Part shown: positions 2,759-35,611 of the stretch, in pieces
Position numbering within the stretch: position 1 is the stretch's first letter
Layout: each line of letters opens with the position of its first letter
Assembly (NCBI GenBank): GCA_023473795.1
Contig: JAMCYS010000044.1
Coordinates: 8,737 to 50,436 of the forward strand
Reading direction: 5' to 3'
DNA length: 41,700 bases
Source of the DNA: Chloroflexota bacterium
Lineage (GTDB): Bacteria > Chloroflexota > UBA6077 > FW602-bin22 > JAMCYS01
Notes under the pieces: model-generated
The model's database searches: none
What the model saw: only the letters and a program-made list of their open reading frames with translations
Told to the model about the DNA's origin: nothing
Made by a program: the position numbers and the translations under genes

Positions 2759-2787
2759 CGAACAGTCTGGCCACTTTCCCTACCCAG

Positions 2788-2817
2788 CGAGCCCCCGGAC
2801 CAGCCTCCGGGGGCTCG
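2788..2817. terminator. Bidirectional terminator between convergent genes
   Basis: Perfect 12-bp inverted repeat, CGAGCCCCCGGA (2788-2799) and TCCGGGGGCTCG (2806-2817), with a 6-base loop. It lies between the LiaF-type gene (+) and the EamA transporter (-), which converge here. The T tract is poor, so its efficiency is uncertain. Confidence 0.75.
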
Positions 2818-2821
2818 TCTG

Positions 2822-3739
2822 CTAGCTAGGCCAAAGCTCGGAAACGAACGTCCCTGCCAGAATCAACCCCGCCCCGGCAAGGCCGCGACTGGAGAGGGTC
2901 TCGCCCAGCCAGAGGAAGGCGAAGAGGGCCGCGAAAACCGGCTCCATGGTGAAGATGATGGCCGTGTGCGTGGGAGAGGTGAGCCGCTGGGCCAGGGTTT
3001 GGATGAAGAAGACGAGGCCGGTGGCTATCGCCCCCAGGAAGACCACGTTGGCCCAGACGGCGGCCGAGGCGGCGAGGGCGGGCCGGTCCAAAAGCAAGGC
3101 CAGGGGCCAGGTGGCCAGCGCCACGAAACCGACCTGAATCACCGCGAGGGCGACCGCGTCGAGTCGCGGGGCGTACTTGCCGACTACGGTGATGTGCAGG
3201 GCGAAGCAGAGGGCGCACAGCAGCACGAGCAAGTCCCCCTGGCTGAGGCCCAGGTCGGCCTTGAGCGTCAGCAGGCCCATGCCGGCGGCAGCCAGGCCGA
3301 CGCCCAGCAACGCGCCCGGGCCGGGCCGGTGCCGCAACAGGGCGAAGGCGAAAAAGGGCACCAGGACGGTGGAAAGGCCGGTGATGAAGGCGGCGATGGA
3401 GGCTCCCGTCGTCCGCAGGCCGAACGTCTGGGTGACGAAGCCGCCCCAGAGGAAAAGGCCAATCAGCGCGCCGGCCGCGTACTCTTGCCGGGTGGCTCGC
3501 AGCAGGCGTTTGGGAAAGAGCAGCGCCAGGACGACGAAACCGATGCTGAAGCGCAGGGCGATGAAGGTGAGCGGCGGCAGCACCTCCGTGGCCTGTTTGA
3601 CCAGCACGAAGGTGGTGCCCCAGATGGCTGTGACCAGCAGGAGCGAGAGGTCGGCGCCTAGCTGGCGGGAGTGCCAAAGGCGCGTCGAGGCCGTCGCGCC
3701 CGGGCCCGCCGTCTGCTCGGCTTCTTGACTCATCCGCAT
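2822..3739 (-). CDS. EamA/DMT-superfamily transporter
   Basis: 305-residue inner-membrane protein with about ten hydrophobic helices arranged as two EamA repeats. The first repeat begins at LLLVTAIWGTTFVLVKQA (about 35-52) and the second near LLVLLCALCFALHITVVGKYA. The end of the second repeat has the typical TMEPVFAALFAFLWLGETLSSRGLAGAGLILAG pattern (motif split over about 265-300). Family members export or import small metabolites such as amino acids or nucleosides; the substrate cannot be told from sequence. Two ATGs compete: 3739, and 3733 two codons inside. The second has the better spacing from the G-rich run at 3741-3746. A perfect TATAAT at 3797-3792 could be its -10 box. Confidence 0.9.
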   Translation of the reverse strand: MRMSQEAEQTAGPGATASTRLWHSRQLGADLSLLLVTAIWGTTFVLVKQATEVLPPLTFIALRFSIGFVVLALLFPKRLLRATRQEYAAGALIGLFLWGGFVTQTFGLRTTGASIAAFITGLSTVLVPFFAFALLRHRPGPGALLGVGLAAAGMGLLTLKADLGLSQGDLLVLLCALCFALHITVVGKYAPRLDAVALAVIQVGFVALATWPLALLLDRPALAASAAVWANVVFLGAIATGLVFFIQTLAQRLTSPTHTAIIFTMEPVFAALFAFLWLGETLSSRGLAGAGLILAGTFVSELWPS

Positions 3740-14379: not shown

Positions 14380-14405
14380 GAGTAGGCCAGCAGACGTTTG
14401 CCCGG

Positions 14406-14423
14406 GCCAAGCCGCGGCTTGGC
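14406..14423. repeat. Perfect 18-bp palindrome upstream of sigma-54-like site
   Basis: GCCAAGCCG / CGGCTTGGC with no loop, so it is better suited to protein binding than to an RNA hairpin. It is 11 bases upstream of the -24 motif at 14435 and 27 bases from the valS -35 box. It could serve as an operator for either direction; no regulator is identified. Confidence 0.5.
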
Positions 14424-14434
14424 GGGCTCGGACG

Positions 14435-14450
14435 TGGCACGGGGCGTGCG
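14435..14450 (+). promoter_or_regulatory. Sigma-54-like -24/-12 motif before UBP gene
   Basis: TGGCACG (14435-14441), GGGC spacer, GTGCG (14446-14450). The invariant GG and GC dinucleotides are in register; the -12 box has G instead of T at its first position. Transcription would start near 14461, about 60 bases before the UBP-finger ATG. Confidence 0.4.
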
Positions 14451-14521
14451 GTGAGTCGGCTTGACCGTCGCCGCGCCGGCTGCGGCCGGCAATCGGAGCA
14501 CAGCGGGAGGAGCGGCAAGGT

Positions 14522-14809
14522 ATGGCCGACAGGGTCTGCACGCACTTAGACCAAATTCGGGATGTGACGCCCAGCGCTCAGGGTTGTGAGGACTGCCTCA
14601 AGACGGGGGACAGCTGGATGCACCTGCGCATCTGCCTCACCTGCGGCCACGTGGGCTGCTGTGATGAGTCCAAGAACAAACACGCCCGCAAGCACTATCA
14701 CGCCACTGGCCATCCCGTCATCCAGTCCTTCGAGCCGGGGGAGGACTGGCTCTGGTGTTTCGCCGACCAGGTGCCGCTGAAGCCGCCCGCTCATCCGCGC
14801 AAGCGCTAG
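14522..14809 (+). CDS. UBP-type zinc finger protein
   Basis: 95 residues, essentially a single ZnF-UBP domain. Probable zinc ligands are C6, H8, C22, C25, C38, C41, C46, H54, H58 and H64 (CTHL...GCEDC...LRICLTCGHVGCC...KHARKHYHATGHP). In eukaryotes this domain binds the ubiquitin C-terminus. Bacterial stand-alone copies are common, and their partner is unknown. A GGGAGGAG precedes the ATG. Its neighbours (valS leader upstream, holin-like gene downstream) give no functional hint. Confidence 0.88.
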   Translation: MADRVCTHLDQIRDVTPSAQGCEDCLKTGDSWMHLRICLTCGHVGCCDESKNKHARKHYHATGHPVIQSFEPGEDWLWCFADQVPLKPPAHPRKR

Positions 14810-14881
14810 GTTAGGGTCGGATATCCCGAGTCATCTTATTGCCCCACCGCAGGCACGTTAGCCGGCCGGAGGAGCGGGGCT

Positions 14882-14897
14882 TGGCACGGGCGTTGCA
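14882..14897 (+). promoter_or_regulatory. Sigma-54-type promoter, exact consensus
   Basis: TGGCACG (14882-14888), spacer GGCG, TTGCA (14893-14897): an exact match to the TGGCACG-N4-TTGCW consensus. The predicted start near 14909 is about 90 bases upstream of the holin-like gene. No bacterial enhancer-binding protein or rpoN gene is in the window. Confidence 0.6.
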
Positions 14898-15000
14898 CTC
14901 CAGGCAGGCTCGGCGCGCCCGAGTATGGGCCGGCGCAGCGGCGCCTTGGCGGCGGCGCGTCGGAAGAGCATGATCAAACTACAGGAGGGGGGAACCGGTA

Positions 15001-15402
15001 GTGCAAGCGGAAACGATACGCCGCCTCAGCACAGGGGAACTGATCGCCCGCCTGGTGGATAACGTCTCAGGCATTTTCGACCACGAGATCGCGCTGGCCA
15101 AAGAGGAAGCCCGGCAGGATGCCCGCCAAGCCATCGTCGGCGGTGCTGCCCTGGCCATCGGCGGGATCTTACTGTACACGGTAGTGCCTGCGGTTATCAC
15201 CGCCATCGTTCTAGCGATCTGGCCCACGCTCAATCCGGTCTGGATTGCGCTCATCGTGGCCGCGTTCTTCTTGGTGGTCGGCGCCATAGTGGCGATCTAT
15301 GGCTGGATGAACGTGAAGATGCAACCGCTGGAGCAGACACGCGATACTCTTAAGGAGGATGTAGAATGGGCCAAACGCCAGACAACATCGCCGAAGAGAT
15401 AG
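15001..15402 (+). CDS. Phage-holin-family / DUF1469-like membrane protein
   Basis: 133 residues starting at GTG with AGGAGGGGGG 10 bases upstream. An amphipathic N-terminal helix contains TGELIARLVDNVSGIFDHEIALAKEEAR (motif region 11-39), followed by two membrane helices (about 47-72 and 79-103) and a charged tail. This is the pattern of the 'phage holin family' (YqjE/DUF1469/Actinobacteriophage holin III) found as ordinary chromosomal genes; it does not imply a prophage. The role may be envelope-related. Its end overlaps the DUF3618 gene by 37 bases, so the two are co-expressed. Confidence 0.8.
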   Translation: MQAETIRRLSTGELIARLVDNVSGIFDHEIALAKEEARQDARQAIVGGAALAIGGILLYTVVPAVITAIVLAIWPTLNPVWIALIVAAFFLVVGAIVAIYGWMNVKMQPLEQTRDTLKEDVEWAKRQTTSPKR

Positions 15403-15965
15403 CCGACCTGCGGCAGGAGACATCGGTGATCGTGGACGAGCTGCGCCACCGAGCTAACCTGGGCTACGTGGCCCGGGGCGTGGGCGGCAGGGTCGGCGAG
15501 CGGGCCGAGACAATGGCCAGCGACCTCAGTCGCCGCGCCGAGATGCTGGCGGGGGAGGTCGGCGACTCTTTGCCGGAGCCGGTGCGACGCAACTCGTCGA
15601 TCTTCGGCGGGGCGCTCTTGGGCGTGCTGGCGGCGCTCGGCCTCTTCACTTTCACCAGTATCCGGGAGGCCCGAGAGTCGAGTCTGTCCGACAAGATCGG
15701 CGATAGGCTATTCGATTCTGCCGATCTTGCCCGCGAGCAGGCCGCGCGGCTAAGCAAGAACGTGCGCGGCGCCATGCGGCAAGCGCAAACCACGCGCGGC
15801 GTGCGCGTGAGCGTAGCGAAGGAGAACGACGGGATGCTGAAGCGACTACTCTGGATAGGCCTGGTCAGCGTGATGGGCGCCCTGGGAGCCATGCTGTTCC
15901 AGCGGATGACCGCGGCAGCCTGGCGCCGAACTATGCACGAGGAGCCGCCCAAGAAGTCAGTTTGA
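15366..15965 (+). CDS. DUF3618 domain protein
   Basis: 199 residues. The N-terminus has the DUF3618 helix pattern (IAEEIADLRQETSVIVDELRHRANLG). A coiled helical region follows, with a membrane helix at about 77-97 (SIFGGALLGVLAALGLFTFT) and a second at about 160-182 (LLWIGLVSVMGALGAMLFQRM). In many bacteria DUF3618 genes follow a holin-like DUF1469 gene and a YqjD-like gene; the module is thought to anchor proteins at the membrane, but its function is undefined. AAGGAGGATG inside the previous gene supplies the ribosome-binding site. A terminator follows. Confidence 0.82.
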   Translation: MGQTPDNIAEEIADLRQETSVIVDELRHRANLGYVARGVGGRVGERAETMASDLSRRAEMLAGEVGDSLPEPVRRNSSIFGGALLGVLAALGLFTFTSIREARESSLSDKIGDRLFDSADLAREQAARLSKNVRGAMRQAQTTRGVRVSVAKENDGMLKRLLWIGLVSVMGALGAMLFQRMTAAAWRRTMHEEPPKKSV

Positions 15966-15985
15966 GCTGTCCTTGCCAGACATCA

Positions 15986-16010
15986 ACCGCCCGGCGTGCT
16001 GCCGGGCGGT
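15986..16010 (+). terminator. Terminator after DUF3618
   Basis: Perfect 10-bp stem ACCGCCCGGC / GCCGGGCGGT with a 5-base loop, followed by CTTTCTT. It lies 20 bases after the DUF3618 stop. Confidence 0.85.
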
Positions 16011-16063
16011 CTTTCTTGGGTCCATGGCCAGGCCCCCCGAGTCCTGCCCGACACGGGCGCATC

Positions 16064-16183
16064 TTTGGAGTGCGCAGGCTTGCCCCCCCTGTCGGGGACA
16101 AAGCCTGCGCTTTCGCGGGCGGCGGCTCGCCGCCGCCCCATCAGACTGTTCTCGAAAGCGGCGGCAAGCCGCCTCACTCCAAA
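16064..16183. repeat. Composite intergenic repeat, copy 1
   Basis: The 372-base gap 15966-16337 holds the terminator above, this element, and a -10 box. The element is bounded by a 9-bp inverted repeat TTTGGAGTG (16064-16072) / CACTCCAAA (16175-16183). Inside are a 10-bp stem GCGCAGGCTT / AAGCCTGCGC (16072-16110), a GGGCGGCGG / CCGCCGCCC hairpin and a GCGGCGGCAAGCCGC hairpin. The same motifs recur at 29612-29719, so it is a dispersed, structured repeat. Confidence 0.7.
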
Positions 16184-16337
16184 ACGAGGCGCCGCCGGTC
16201 GCCGCCACAAGGAATGCCCATCTTCACCAGTAATTCTGGCCCGCGCTGGTCAGTACCAATGTCCTCCTCATTACTCCTGTCACATCCAGCTCCGCGGCGG
16301 TGTTCTATAATCGCTAACGGAACCTGGAGGAGAAGAC

Positions 16338-16916
16338 TTGGAGGCGTCGCTATTGCTCACCCCGTCTGATGCCCTGCTACTCGAGGGCCTGGCAAAGGGC
16401 GATGAAGCCTCGTTCGACGCGCTCTTCCTGCGTTACTATCCGCGGGTCTACGGTGTCGCCTTTCGCTTCCTGGGCGACCGCGATGAGGCCGAGGACGTGG
16501 CGCAGGAGGTCTTCCTCAAGCTGCACGGGCGGCACTTCAGGCCGAGGGAGCAGCAGCTGGCAGGCTGGCTGTATCGGGTAGGCCTCAACCTCTGCCGCAA
16601 CCGGGAGCGAGGCAGCTCGCGCCGGCAGCGGCGAGAGGAGACGGCGACGACGGAGGCCAGACTGCTCGGCCAGGACCTGGAGCCAGACCCAGCCGGGGAG
16701 GCGGTCCGCGCCGAGGAACGGGCCCTGGTGCGCCGGGCTCTGGCCGAGTTGCCCGAGCGCTCGCGGCATATCCTGCTGCTGCGCCAATCTGGCCTTTCCT
16801 ACGCCGAGGTTGCCGCGGTAATGGGGATTGCACCCGGTTCCGTGGGCACGCTCCTGGCGAGGGCCGAGGAGCGGTTTCGCGAGCGCTACCTGGCGCTGAG
16901 TCGCGAGGAGGACTGA
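16338..16916 (+). CDS. ECF-family RNA polymerase sigma factor
   Basis: 192 residues from a TTG start with GGAGGAG 6 bases upstream. The sigma-2 domain lies at about 22-90 (ALFLRYYPRVYGVAFRFLGDRDEAEDVAQEVFLKL, -10 recognition), then an Arg-rich linker, and sigma-4 at about 130-190 (LPERSRHILLLRQSGLSYAEVAAVMGIAPGSVGTLLARAEERF, helix-turn-helix for the -35 element). It is followed after 2 bases by its putative zinc anti-sigma gene, the classic ECF pair. A perfect TATAAT (16306-16311) lies upstream without a recognisable housekeeping -35. Confidence 0.93.
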   Translation: MEASLLLTPSDALLLEGLAKGDEASFDALFLRYYPRVYGVAFRFLGDRDEAEDVAQEVFLKLHGRHFRPREQQLAGWLYRVGLNLCRNRERGSSRRQRREETATTEARLLGQDLEPDPAGEAVRAEERALVRRALAELPERSRHILLLRQSGLSYAEVAAVMGIAPGSVGTLLARAEERFRERYLALSREED

Positions 16917-16918
16917 AC

Positions 16919-18079
16919 ATGGAGTGTTTGGACGCGGGGAGTCTGCGCGCCTACCTGGACGAGGAACTGGCGCCTGGCCAAAGGGCGGCAGCGGCCGCCC
17001 ACCTGGATCAGTGCCCCGCGTGCCGGCAGGAGCTGGCGCAGCTGGCGGCTCAGCGGGAGGCGGCGGGCACGGCGCTGGCCGCGCTTGCCCCAGGCGAGGG
17101 CGAGGCGTCCCCGCCGGTCGTCGCCTTGCGGGCCTGGCGCCAGCGCCGGGCCGCGCGCACTGGGCTTTGGCAGAGAATGCAGGGAGGTGTTACCGCGATG
17201 AGCGAGGGTTCTTGGTGGCGCAGCTGGCGGTCCGCCGCGGCGGCGCTGGCTCTGGTGGTGATCGTCGCCGGTGTGGTTTTGACGCCGGCCGGCACGGTGC
17301 TGGGCGATTGGCTCTCCGTCTTCCGGGCGGAGAAGTTTGCCCCGGTGACAATCGATCCATCCAAGATGGACACGGCGAACGCGCCCAAGCTCGACCCGTC
17401 CCAGATGGGCGAGTTCAAGGTCAAGGTGGAGCCGCAGCACAAGCAGGTGGCGGACCTGGGCGCCGCGCAGGGGACGGTTGATTTCAAGTTGCGCAGCCTC
17501 AAATCCGTGCCCGCGGGGCTGGCCGCCCAGCCGGGAGTTTTCACGAATACGACCGGCGACTTGACCTACGTGTTCGACCTGGCCAAGACGAAGGCGGCGT
17601 TGGCGGCGCAGGGCATCAACGTGCAGTTGCCGGCCGACCTCGACGGCGCCACCGTGCGCGTCTACGTGCCGGCGTCGGTGCAGCTGCTGTACAAGGGCGG
17701 TAGCGGCAGCGAGAGCGGCCTGTTCTTCTACCAGGGGCGCAGCCCCACGCTGGAGCTGCCGGGGGCGCTGGATACGCCGCAGATGCGCGACCTGTTCTTC
17801 CAGCTCTCCGGACTGCCGCCCGAGCTGATCGACCAGCTGAAGGCGATGAGCCAGTCGAATACGACCGTGCCGGTGCCGGTGTTGAAGGGTGACTCCTCGC
17901 GGACGGTCACGGTGGACGGCACGCAGGGGCTGCTGGTGGACCACAAGCCGACCATGGCCGGCGACAACGCCCCGGCCGGGAGTTACCTGGTTTGGCAGAA
18001 GGACGGCGTGGTCTACCTGCTCGGCGGCACGGTCTCCGCGTCCGACCTGCAGGCCGCTGCCAACGCCCTGCAGCCGTAA
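16919..18079 (+). CDS. Zinc anti-sigma factor with extracytoplasmic domain
   Basis: 386 residues. The N-terminal ZAS domain has H28-x3-C32-x2-C35 (HLDQCPAC), the signature that binds the sigma factor. After a linker, one membrane helix lies at about 105-124 (SAAAALALVVIVAGVVLTPAG). The 260-residue outer part contains repeated hydrophobic strands and a C-terminal segment (SYLVWQKDGVVYLLGGTVSASDLQAAANAL) that resembles DUF4367-like sensor tails. This implies that the signal is outside the membrane. The gene begins 2 bases after the sigma stop. What it senses is unknown. Confidence 0.85.
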   Translation: MECLDAGSLRAYLDEELAPGQRAAAAAHLDQCPACRQELAQLAAQREAAGTALAALAPGEGEASPPVVALRAWRQRRAARTGLWQRMQGGVTAMSEGSWWRSWRSAAAALALVVIVAGVVLTPAGTVLGDWLSVFRAEKFAPVTIDPSKMDTANAPKLDPSQMGEFKVKVEPQHKQVADLGAAQGTVDFKLRSLKSVPAGLAAQPGVFTNTTGDLTYVFDLAKTKAALAAQGINVQLPADLDGATVRVYVPASVQLLYKGGSGSESGLFFYQGRSPTLELPGALDTPQMRDLFFQLSGLPPELIDQLKAMSQSNTTVPVPVLKGDSSRTVTVDGTQGLLVDHKPTMAGDNAPAGSYLVWQKDGVVYLLGGTVSASDLQAAANALQP

Positions 18080-35290: not shown

Positions 35291-35611
35291 CTAGTACTCG
35301 CCGCCCTGCTCCATGGACATCGCCTTGGTCGGCTTGGTGGGGCAAACGTAGGCGCAGATGCCACAGCCCTTGCAGTGCATTTCGTCGATGCCCGTCACCT
35401 TGCCCTCGGCTACCGCGATGGAGCCATCCGGGCAGTTGATCCAGCAGAGAAGGCAGTTGGTGCAGATATCCGCCTTGAAGATCGGCCGCTGGGTGCGCCA
35501 GCTGCCGGTACGATACTGGGCCGAATTGCCGACGTTGGAGAGGATGCCGCCCAGGGGCACTTCGCTCACGCAAGGTAGTTCGCTAAGGTTCTCTATGCGA
35601 CGGATCTTCAT
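35291..35611 (-). CDS. porD: 2-oxoacid:ferredoxin oxidoreductase, delta subunit (2[4Fe-4S] ferredoxin)
   Basis: 106 residues from ATG 35611 (GAGGAGG upstream). Two CxxCxxCxxxCP clusters, CTNCLLCWINCP and CKGCGICAYVCP, each bind a [4Fe-4S] centre and pass electrons to free ferredoxin. The N-terminal 40 residues (SEVPLGGILSNVGNSAQYRTGSWR) are the usual PorD lead. The start overlaps the porC stop by 4 bases (ATGA). An upstream in-frame extension would run through porC in another frame and is rejected. Confidence 0.94.
   Translation of the reverse strand: MKIRRIENLSELPCVSEVPLGGILSNVGNSAQYRTGSWRTQRPIFKADICTNCLLCWINCPDGSIAVAEGKVTGIDEMHCKGCGICAYVCPTKPTKAMSMEQGGEY

Follow-up and report, generated by a model that had tools for sequence, protein, structure and literature searches.

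The locus examined here raises the question of whether an exact match to the sigma-54 consensus, placed ahead of a short membrane-protein operon in a member of the Chloroflexota, is a working promoter and, if so, to what kind of response it belongs. Within the window (the whole 41,700-nucleotide stretch of DNA that was analyzed), TGGCACGGGCGTTGCA is found at positions 14882 to 14897 of the plus strand and reads TGGCACG-GGCG-TTGCA, with 0 mismatches to TGGCACG-N4-TTGCA. The GG (14883 and 14884) and the GC (14895 and 14896) are separated by ten bases, and the TGGCACG-N4-TTGCW context is complete. A distance of 103 bp separates the end of the motif from the GTG at 15001 that opens a DUF1469 gene, and the strand is correct. 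As sigma-54-dependent transcription begins approximately 12 nt after the GC of the -12 element, a start near 14908 would give a leader of approximately 93 nt, as calculated from the motif position. An earlier note, made from the sequence alone, had described an exact -24/-12 consensus approximately 90 bases upstream on the same strand, and both statements hold. Overall, we place a probability of about 0.82 on the reading that 14882 to 14897 is a working sigma-54 promoter of this short operon and that the operon is one of approximately ten units resembling a stress or membrane-quality response.

The first gene of the operon matched PF07332 at 1.3e-27 (96.5 bits against a cut-off of 28.4), while the second reached 18.9 bits against PF12277 (DUF3618), under the cut-off of 24.9, and can thus be called only DUF3618-like; the pair named in the earlier note was therefore confirmed for DUF1469 and not for DUF3618. 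A weak DUF4235 match (15.0 bits, under the cut-off of 27) lies in the C-terminal part of the second gene. The two genes overlap by 37 bp, from which translational coupling is likely. Four terminator-like hairpins were found in the 2 kb around the operon, compared with a shuffle mean of 1.1. The upstream neighbor is a small zf-UBP zinc-finger gene on the same strand (14522 to 14809), and a two-mismatch sigma-54-like site, TGGCACGGGGCGTGCG at 14435 to 14450 (+), lies approximately 70 bp 5' of it. Directly downstream of the operon are genes for an extracytoplasmic function (ECF) sigma factor (16338 to 16916, +) and a zf-HC2 anti-sigma-like protein (16919 to 18079, +). The features of the operon are collected in Table 1, together with the genes behind exact sites elsewhere in the genome and the small-RNA candidates discussed below.

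Table 1. Features of the operon in the window, first genes behind exact sites in this genome (G000), and candidate small RNAs
Feature	Location	Strand	Remarks
Predicted sigma-54 (-24/-12) promoter	14882..14897	+	Exact motif, enrichment, near-exact site before G008 relative
Predicted transcription start	14907..14909	+	Approximately 12 nt past GC; inferred position
Shine-Dalgarno-like AGGAGGGG	14983..14990	+	Ahead of GTG start
DUF1469 / Phage_holin_3_6 (Holin-X, YqjE-like) membrane protein, 133 aa, GTG start	15001..15402	+	PF07332
DUF3618-like membrane protein, 199 aa	15366..15965	+	PF12277 below cut-off
Intrinsic-terminator-like hairpin (11 pairs), then CTTTCTT	15986..16010	+	End of two-gene operon
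CbiM			Exact site 115 bp upstream; CbiQ-like companion by eye
DUF1469			Exact site 103 bp upstream of start
HtpX/M48			Exact site 69 bp upstream; placed at conserved or likely start
FtsH/M41			Exact site 51 bp upstream of start
dCache-HAMP histidine kinase (sensor kinase)			Exact site 100 bp upstream
KGG-repeat stress peptide			Exact site 51 bp upstream of start
RpoD-like sigma factor	L107:250-1341	-	Exact site 60 bp upstream; below RpoD cut-offs shown
Citrate synthase			Exact site 54 bp upstream of start
SufC	L109		Exact site 338 bp upstream; short ORF at 36 and hairpin between
Small zinc-ribbon protein			Exact site 45 bp upstream; placed at conserved or likely start
Small-RNA candidate	L092:4986-5136	-	G000
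Small-RNA candidate	L153:501-846	+	G009
Small-RNA candidate	L144:501-680	+	G008
Small-RNA candidate, weaker	L120:501-595	+	G007

An exact TGGCACGN4TTGCW is expected 0.014 times per window under a first-order model of the window. At up to two mismatches the window holds three matches, the other two (14435 to 14450 and 35359 to 35374, both +) having 2 mismatches each, and this total is not above that of shuffles (mean, 4.09). Across the 4.44-Mb genome, 10 exact sites were found against 0 for the reversed-pattern control and approximately 1.5 expected from the same model (Poisson P of approximately 3e-6, or 9e-4 with the expectation doubled), making occurrence by chance unlikely. With one mismatch allowed, the count rises to 81 against 45 in the control search, and called genes contain 33 of the 71 sites that have one mismatch; the wider regulon list is therefore noisy, and one-mismatch sites are only partly usable as regulon members. 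Among the genomes of the class, the 18 that carry rpoN hold 136 exact sites against 19 controls and the 11 that lack it hold 16 against 11 (Mann-Whitney P of 6e-4 for the site excess), with 6 of these 16 in a single genome, the 86%-complete G017, where an activator is present. Relatives of the same order (G001 to G004, G007, G008, G009, and G012) include G008 with 29 exact sites, G009 with 25, G007 with 11, and G012 with 6, as well as the rpoN-positive G001 to G004 with a small excess (12 sites versus 5 controls); four rpoN-negative genomes of the order have 0, 0, 0, and 1. The scan of upstream regions proposed in the earlier note thus returned a genome-wide set of exact sites that is enriched in rpoN-positive relatives.

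The earlier note had also tied its proposal to the presence of rpoN, and on this count the proposal stands. The genome carries one rpoN, on contig C149, with PF00309, PF04963, and PF04552 all present, a TIGR02395 score of 326.9 bits (over the cut-off of 277.35), and the RpoN box ARRTVAKYRE. The search for enhancer-binding proteins likewise found one strong PF00158 match, on contig C43 (2.9e-71), the remaining five being at 4.7e-6 or weaker. This activator combines a receiver domain (PF00072), an AAA+ domain (PF00158), and a Fis-type helix-turn-helix (HTH; PF02954) and is thus of the NtrC type, with a loop that reads GSFTGA where the canonical form is GAFTGA. In the 18 activator loci that could be read (from L012 and L186 to L203; the G019 locus gave no ORF and is outside the 18), the loop is GSFTGA in 9, GSFTSA in 7, GAFTSA in 1, and GAFTGA in 1, the last in a G007 fragment. 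The C-terminal HTH of the activator differs from family to family, which would fit a drift in DNA recognition.

Across the 29 genomes of the class, rpoN is present in 18 and a strong activator in 18, with both in 17, rpoN only in G022, activator only in G017, and neither in 10 (Fisher P of 6e-6). Exactly one activator match at 1e-20 was found in 17 of the 18 activator genomes; the two partial matches of G007 differ in sequence, so that this genome probably has two activators. Of the 17 genomes that carry the two genes, 10 have them less than 5 kb apart; in this genome they are on different contigs. Acquisition of rpoN through contamination of the assembly is not supported, as the tetranucleotide correlations of the rpoN and activator contigs with the window are 0.981 and 0.989, respectively, a weak test given that the values for pieces of G019 and G021 are 0.962 and 0.948. 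In the activator tree the protein groups with those of same-order genomes at 99/99, and the rpoN tree leaves the position of G000 unresolved. From a phylum sample of 400 genomes, the rpoN DNA-binding domain was matched in 130 (126 over cut-off), bearing out the earlier remark that sigma-54 is not universal in Chloroflexota; its presence in only some Chloroflexi is also noted by Francke et al. 2011 (PMC3162934).

All 10 exact sites of the genome precede a plausible start on the right strand, nine at 45 to 115 bp and that of sufC at 338 bp, and for nine of the 10 the first gene scores above the cut-off of a family. The gene caller was rough, and the sites of HtpX and the zinc ribbon, which fell inside over-long ORFs, were re-placed by inspection. 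The RpoD-like sigma factor raises the possibility of a sigma cascade, and the long leader of sufC, with its short ORF and terminator-like hairpin, could be an attenuator or another small RNA. From ten hand-chosen genes among the 71 with one-mismatch sites that were put to Pfam, it was found that some of these sites precede two more KGG peptides, a DUF2795 protein, an SPW protein, a BrkB/YihY protein, and an M50 protease.

To place this set among its relatives, ORFs downstream of exact sites were compared in five genomes (G000, G007, G008, G009, and G012); the latter four hold 71 exact sites, from which the 29 clearer downstream ORFs were put to Pfam, 8 of them giving no match at an E value of 0.001. 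Behind an exact site, FtsH was found at 51 bp in G000, at about 58 bp in G008 (where the gene reads as two ORFs), and at 436 bp in G009. The zinc ribbon follows such a site in G000, G008, G009, and G012, its start lying 45 to 54 bp away, and KGG does so in G000 and G009. Neither FtsH nor KGG is among the exact-site genes of G007 (11 sites) or G012 (6 sites), and among the five genomes HtpX was seen behind an exact site only in this one. Site genes common to G008 and G009 include GH15 enzymes, a 2-hydroxyacid dehydrogenase, and zinc-finger/BON-like operons (by eye), among others, and those of the two genomes also include a penicillin-binding protein and CofD. In G009, exact sites precede genes for HtrA-like, DJ-1/PfpI, rubrerythrin, HU, and trehalose-phosphate synthase proteins, and one operon has an ORF that is Hsp20-like by eye. 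A regulon is supported in near relatives, with gaps. Comparison with these genomes suggests that the promoter belongs to a set through which one sigma-54/activator pair turns on genes for membrane proteases and stress proteins, along with related ones, and from the gene content a general or envelope stress role is plausible.

Metabolic genes also lie behind the sites, and citrate synthase and CbiM, which are not obviously stress genes, count against a stress regulon. It is possible, although we consider it doubtful, that the set instead serves the cell exterior and central metabolism (metal uptake, transport, and carbon storage) and is switched by nutrients, with the proteases as passengers. 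CbiM with its CbiQ-like companion (by eye), citrate synthase, the sensor kinase, and the enzymes, penicillin-binding protein, and CofD of G008 and G009 would fit such a set, and Francke et al. 2011 (PMC3162934) argue that sigma-54 governs the cell exterior. However, FtsH, HtpX, and KGG, together with the HtrA-like, DJ-1/PfpI, rubrerythrin, HU, and trehalose-phosphate synthase genes of G009, are of stress type, and the two views overlap.

Conservation of the promoter itself was followed through DUF1469. The closest relative, from G008 (same order, another family), is 42 to 46% identical and has a one-mismatch site, TGGCACAGGTTTTGCA, 39 bp upstream; the chance of such a site is approximately 0.004 per 250 bp, a value from only 3 control matches in 86 kb. 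The sigma-54 promoter that the earlier note had proposed ahead of the DUF1469 operon is well supported by comparison. G009, in which DUF1469 was not found, keeps the two genes that follow it in the G008 operon, and an exact site precedes the first of these, a phosphoribosyltransferase gene. The class contains 15 DUF1469 matches besides that of this genome, of which 13 loci, including G008, were tested. The 12 other loci (11 in rpoN-positive genomes) have no convincing site and at best one with two mismatches, the best being those of G016 at -74 and G004 at -345; among the eight loci from named genomes, seven lack a convincing site and the eighth is G008. These more distant homologs share 26 to 37% identity, and as they are without convincing sites, sigma-54 control of DUF1469 seems limited to near relatives. 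In G019, from another family, an exact site (L095:2052-2067, +) lies approximately 1.06 kb 5' of DUF1469 and an ORF that is DUF3618-like by eye; it was left out of the count, as the intervening stretch is partly N.

It is unlikely, in our estimation, that the promoter is real but secondary, with the main expression of the operon coming from the neighboring ECF sigma factor or from an undetected housekeeping promoter. The ECF sigma/anti-sigma-like pair does follow directly on the same strand, and similar Actinoplanes operons were raised by overexpressing another sigma factor (PMC11205660), but a strong hairpin separates the DUF1469 operon from the ECF operon, and neighborhood alone is weak evidence. 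Less probable still is a chance or relict motif without promoter activity, the operon being transcribed by another sigma factor, since, even though one or two of the ten exact sites could be accidental when approximately 1.5 are expected per genome and the more distant DUF1469 homologs lack convincing sites, strand and spacing are correct, the G008 gene keeps a near-exact site in another family at only 42 to 46% protein identity, and no sigma-70-like promoter was found by a simple scan of 14400 to 16400, which is weak evidence as shuffles expect only 0.4.

The motif, rpoN, the activator, the enrichment, and the recurrence before related genes are computed, and for the start site, the activation step, and the stress signal we infer the following. 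Under the preferred reading of a sigma-54 promoter serving a stress-type set, RpoN-RNA polymerase would bind the -24/-12 element and wait in a closed complex, which the only strong NtrC-type activator of the genome, when phosphorylated and acting through its receiver domain, would remodel. Transcription would then start near 14908, run through the DUF1469 and DUF3618-like genes, and stop at the hairpin near 16010. The operon would be switched as one of approximately ten units, with those of FtsH, HtpX, the KGG peptide, the RpoD-like sigma factor, SufC, CbiM, citrate synthase, the sensor kinase, and the zinc ribbon, a set that would resemble responses run with sigma-S, AlgU, or sigma-H in other bacteria. 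The membrane proteins of the operon probably adjust the inner membrane when growth is slow or the envelope is under stress.

A binding site for the activator was sought in the regions upstream of the 75 exact sites of G000, G007, G008, and G009. No palindromic dyad stood out, and a scan for 6- to 8-mers found CCTGGC in 34 of the regions, against maxima of 25 to 30 in ten shuffles, which hints faintly at an activator site or reflects codon bias. The lack of a convincing enhancer in these 75 regions may indicate a weak motif or activation from solution. The activator gene of G009 has an exact site 400 bp upstream, and that of G000 has a one-mismatch site 326 bp upstream of the start given by the longest ORF. 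Site and gene are separated in both genomes by a small-RNA-like element.

In G000, G009, and G008, this element comes after a sigma-54 site and consists of a 28- to 29-nt stretch, CCTCATCCCCACTTTT(T)CCTCCTTTAGCA, and then a hairpin whose TTCCAGCCG tip is invariant while both sides of its stem vary. The stretch is C/U-rich and carries CCTCCTTT, CCTCC being the anti-Shine-Dalgarno core. It is almost wholly single-stranded in the three predicted folds that contain the hairpin and partly paired in a fourth, that of the G008 stretch cut before the hairpin; a clear T tract is present only in the G008 copy. A covariance model built from the three loci and run on 178 sequence sources recovered these training loci and a shorter element in G007 (E value of 0.04), starting six bases past an exact site. 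As a plain hairpin of the window (2761 to 2826) scores better (E value of 0.007), the G007 element rests on position, not score. An Rfam search of eight activator loci gave one chance-level match and nothing convincing. We regard the conserved element, with its anti-Shine-Dalgarno stretch, as a candidate small RNA driven by sigma-54.

Nitrogen, motility, and the cell exterior are the usual associations of sigma-54, and a genome often has several activators for it. The Psp response of Escherichia coli, in which PspF and sigma-54 control inner-membrane protection, is a likeness to the system proposed here, but PspF is without a receiver domain, unlike the activator of this genome; the genes seen after the ten exact sites include none of pspA type. 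Searches of the literature, with subscription journals mostly outside their reach, found no report of sigma-54 regulons in Chloroflexi and none of DUF1469/DUF3618 under sigma-54, matching the earlier note, whose author knew of no description of such control.

The closest parallels to the DUF1469 operon use other sigma factors. In E. coli, yqjC/D/E are under sigma-S (PMC10746276); YqjE of the yqjCDEK operon is of DUF1469 type, and a sigma-S promoter lies approximately 100 nt before yqjD, but the sigma factor is not sigma-54 and the partner is YqjD (DUF883), not DUF3618 (PMC10746276). Pseudomonas aeruginosa PA3040-3042 is an envelope-stress and stationary-phase operon with a YqjE-like gene, whereas its sigma factor is AlgU and its partner genes are others (PMC11302039). 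Actinoplanes has the same Holin-X/DUF3618 pair twice, once beside DUF4235 and BrkB/YihY, but in operons raised, possibly indirectly, in a sigma-H overexpression strain (PMC11205660). In Borrelia, the putative activator Rrp2, for which enhancer-independent activation is reported, is made up of receiver, ATPase, and HTH parts (PMC1976401), and RpoN feeds another sigma factor, RpoS (PMC1976401, PMC4014564, PMC3037356); the Rrp2-RpoN-RpoS pathway, however, serves host adaptation and not this gene set. The promoter therefore belongs to a known class; what is new is that one activator, this gene set, and this phylum come together.

We rate a little below even, and offer tentatively, the wider proposal that throughout the class one RpoN and, in nearly every rpoN genome, one response-regulator activator act as the general and envelope stress switch. 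Without fixed enhancer sites, the pair would control the DUF1469 operon and a second-tier sigma factor as well as membrane proteases, stress peptides, and a small RNA with an anti-Shine-Dalgarno stretch. If true, this switch would fill the role that sigma-S, sigma-B, or sigma-H has elsewhere, and a stress module comprising the DUF1469 pair, FtsH, HtpX, and KGG could move between unrelated sigma systems. Since sister families lack both rpoN and the site excess, the group also offers a natural experiment on regulon loss.
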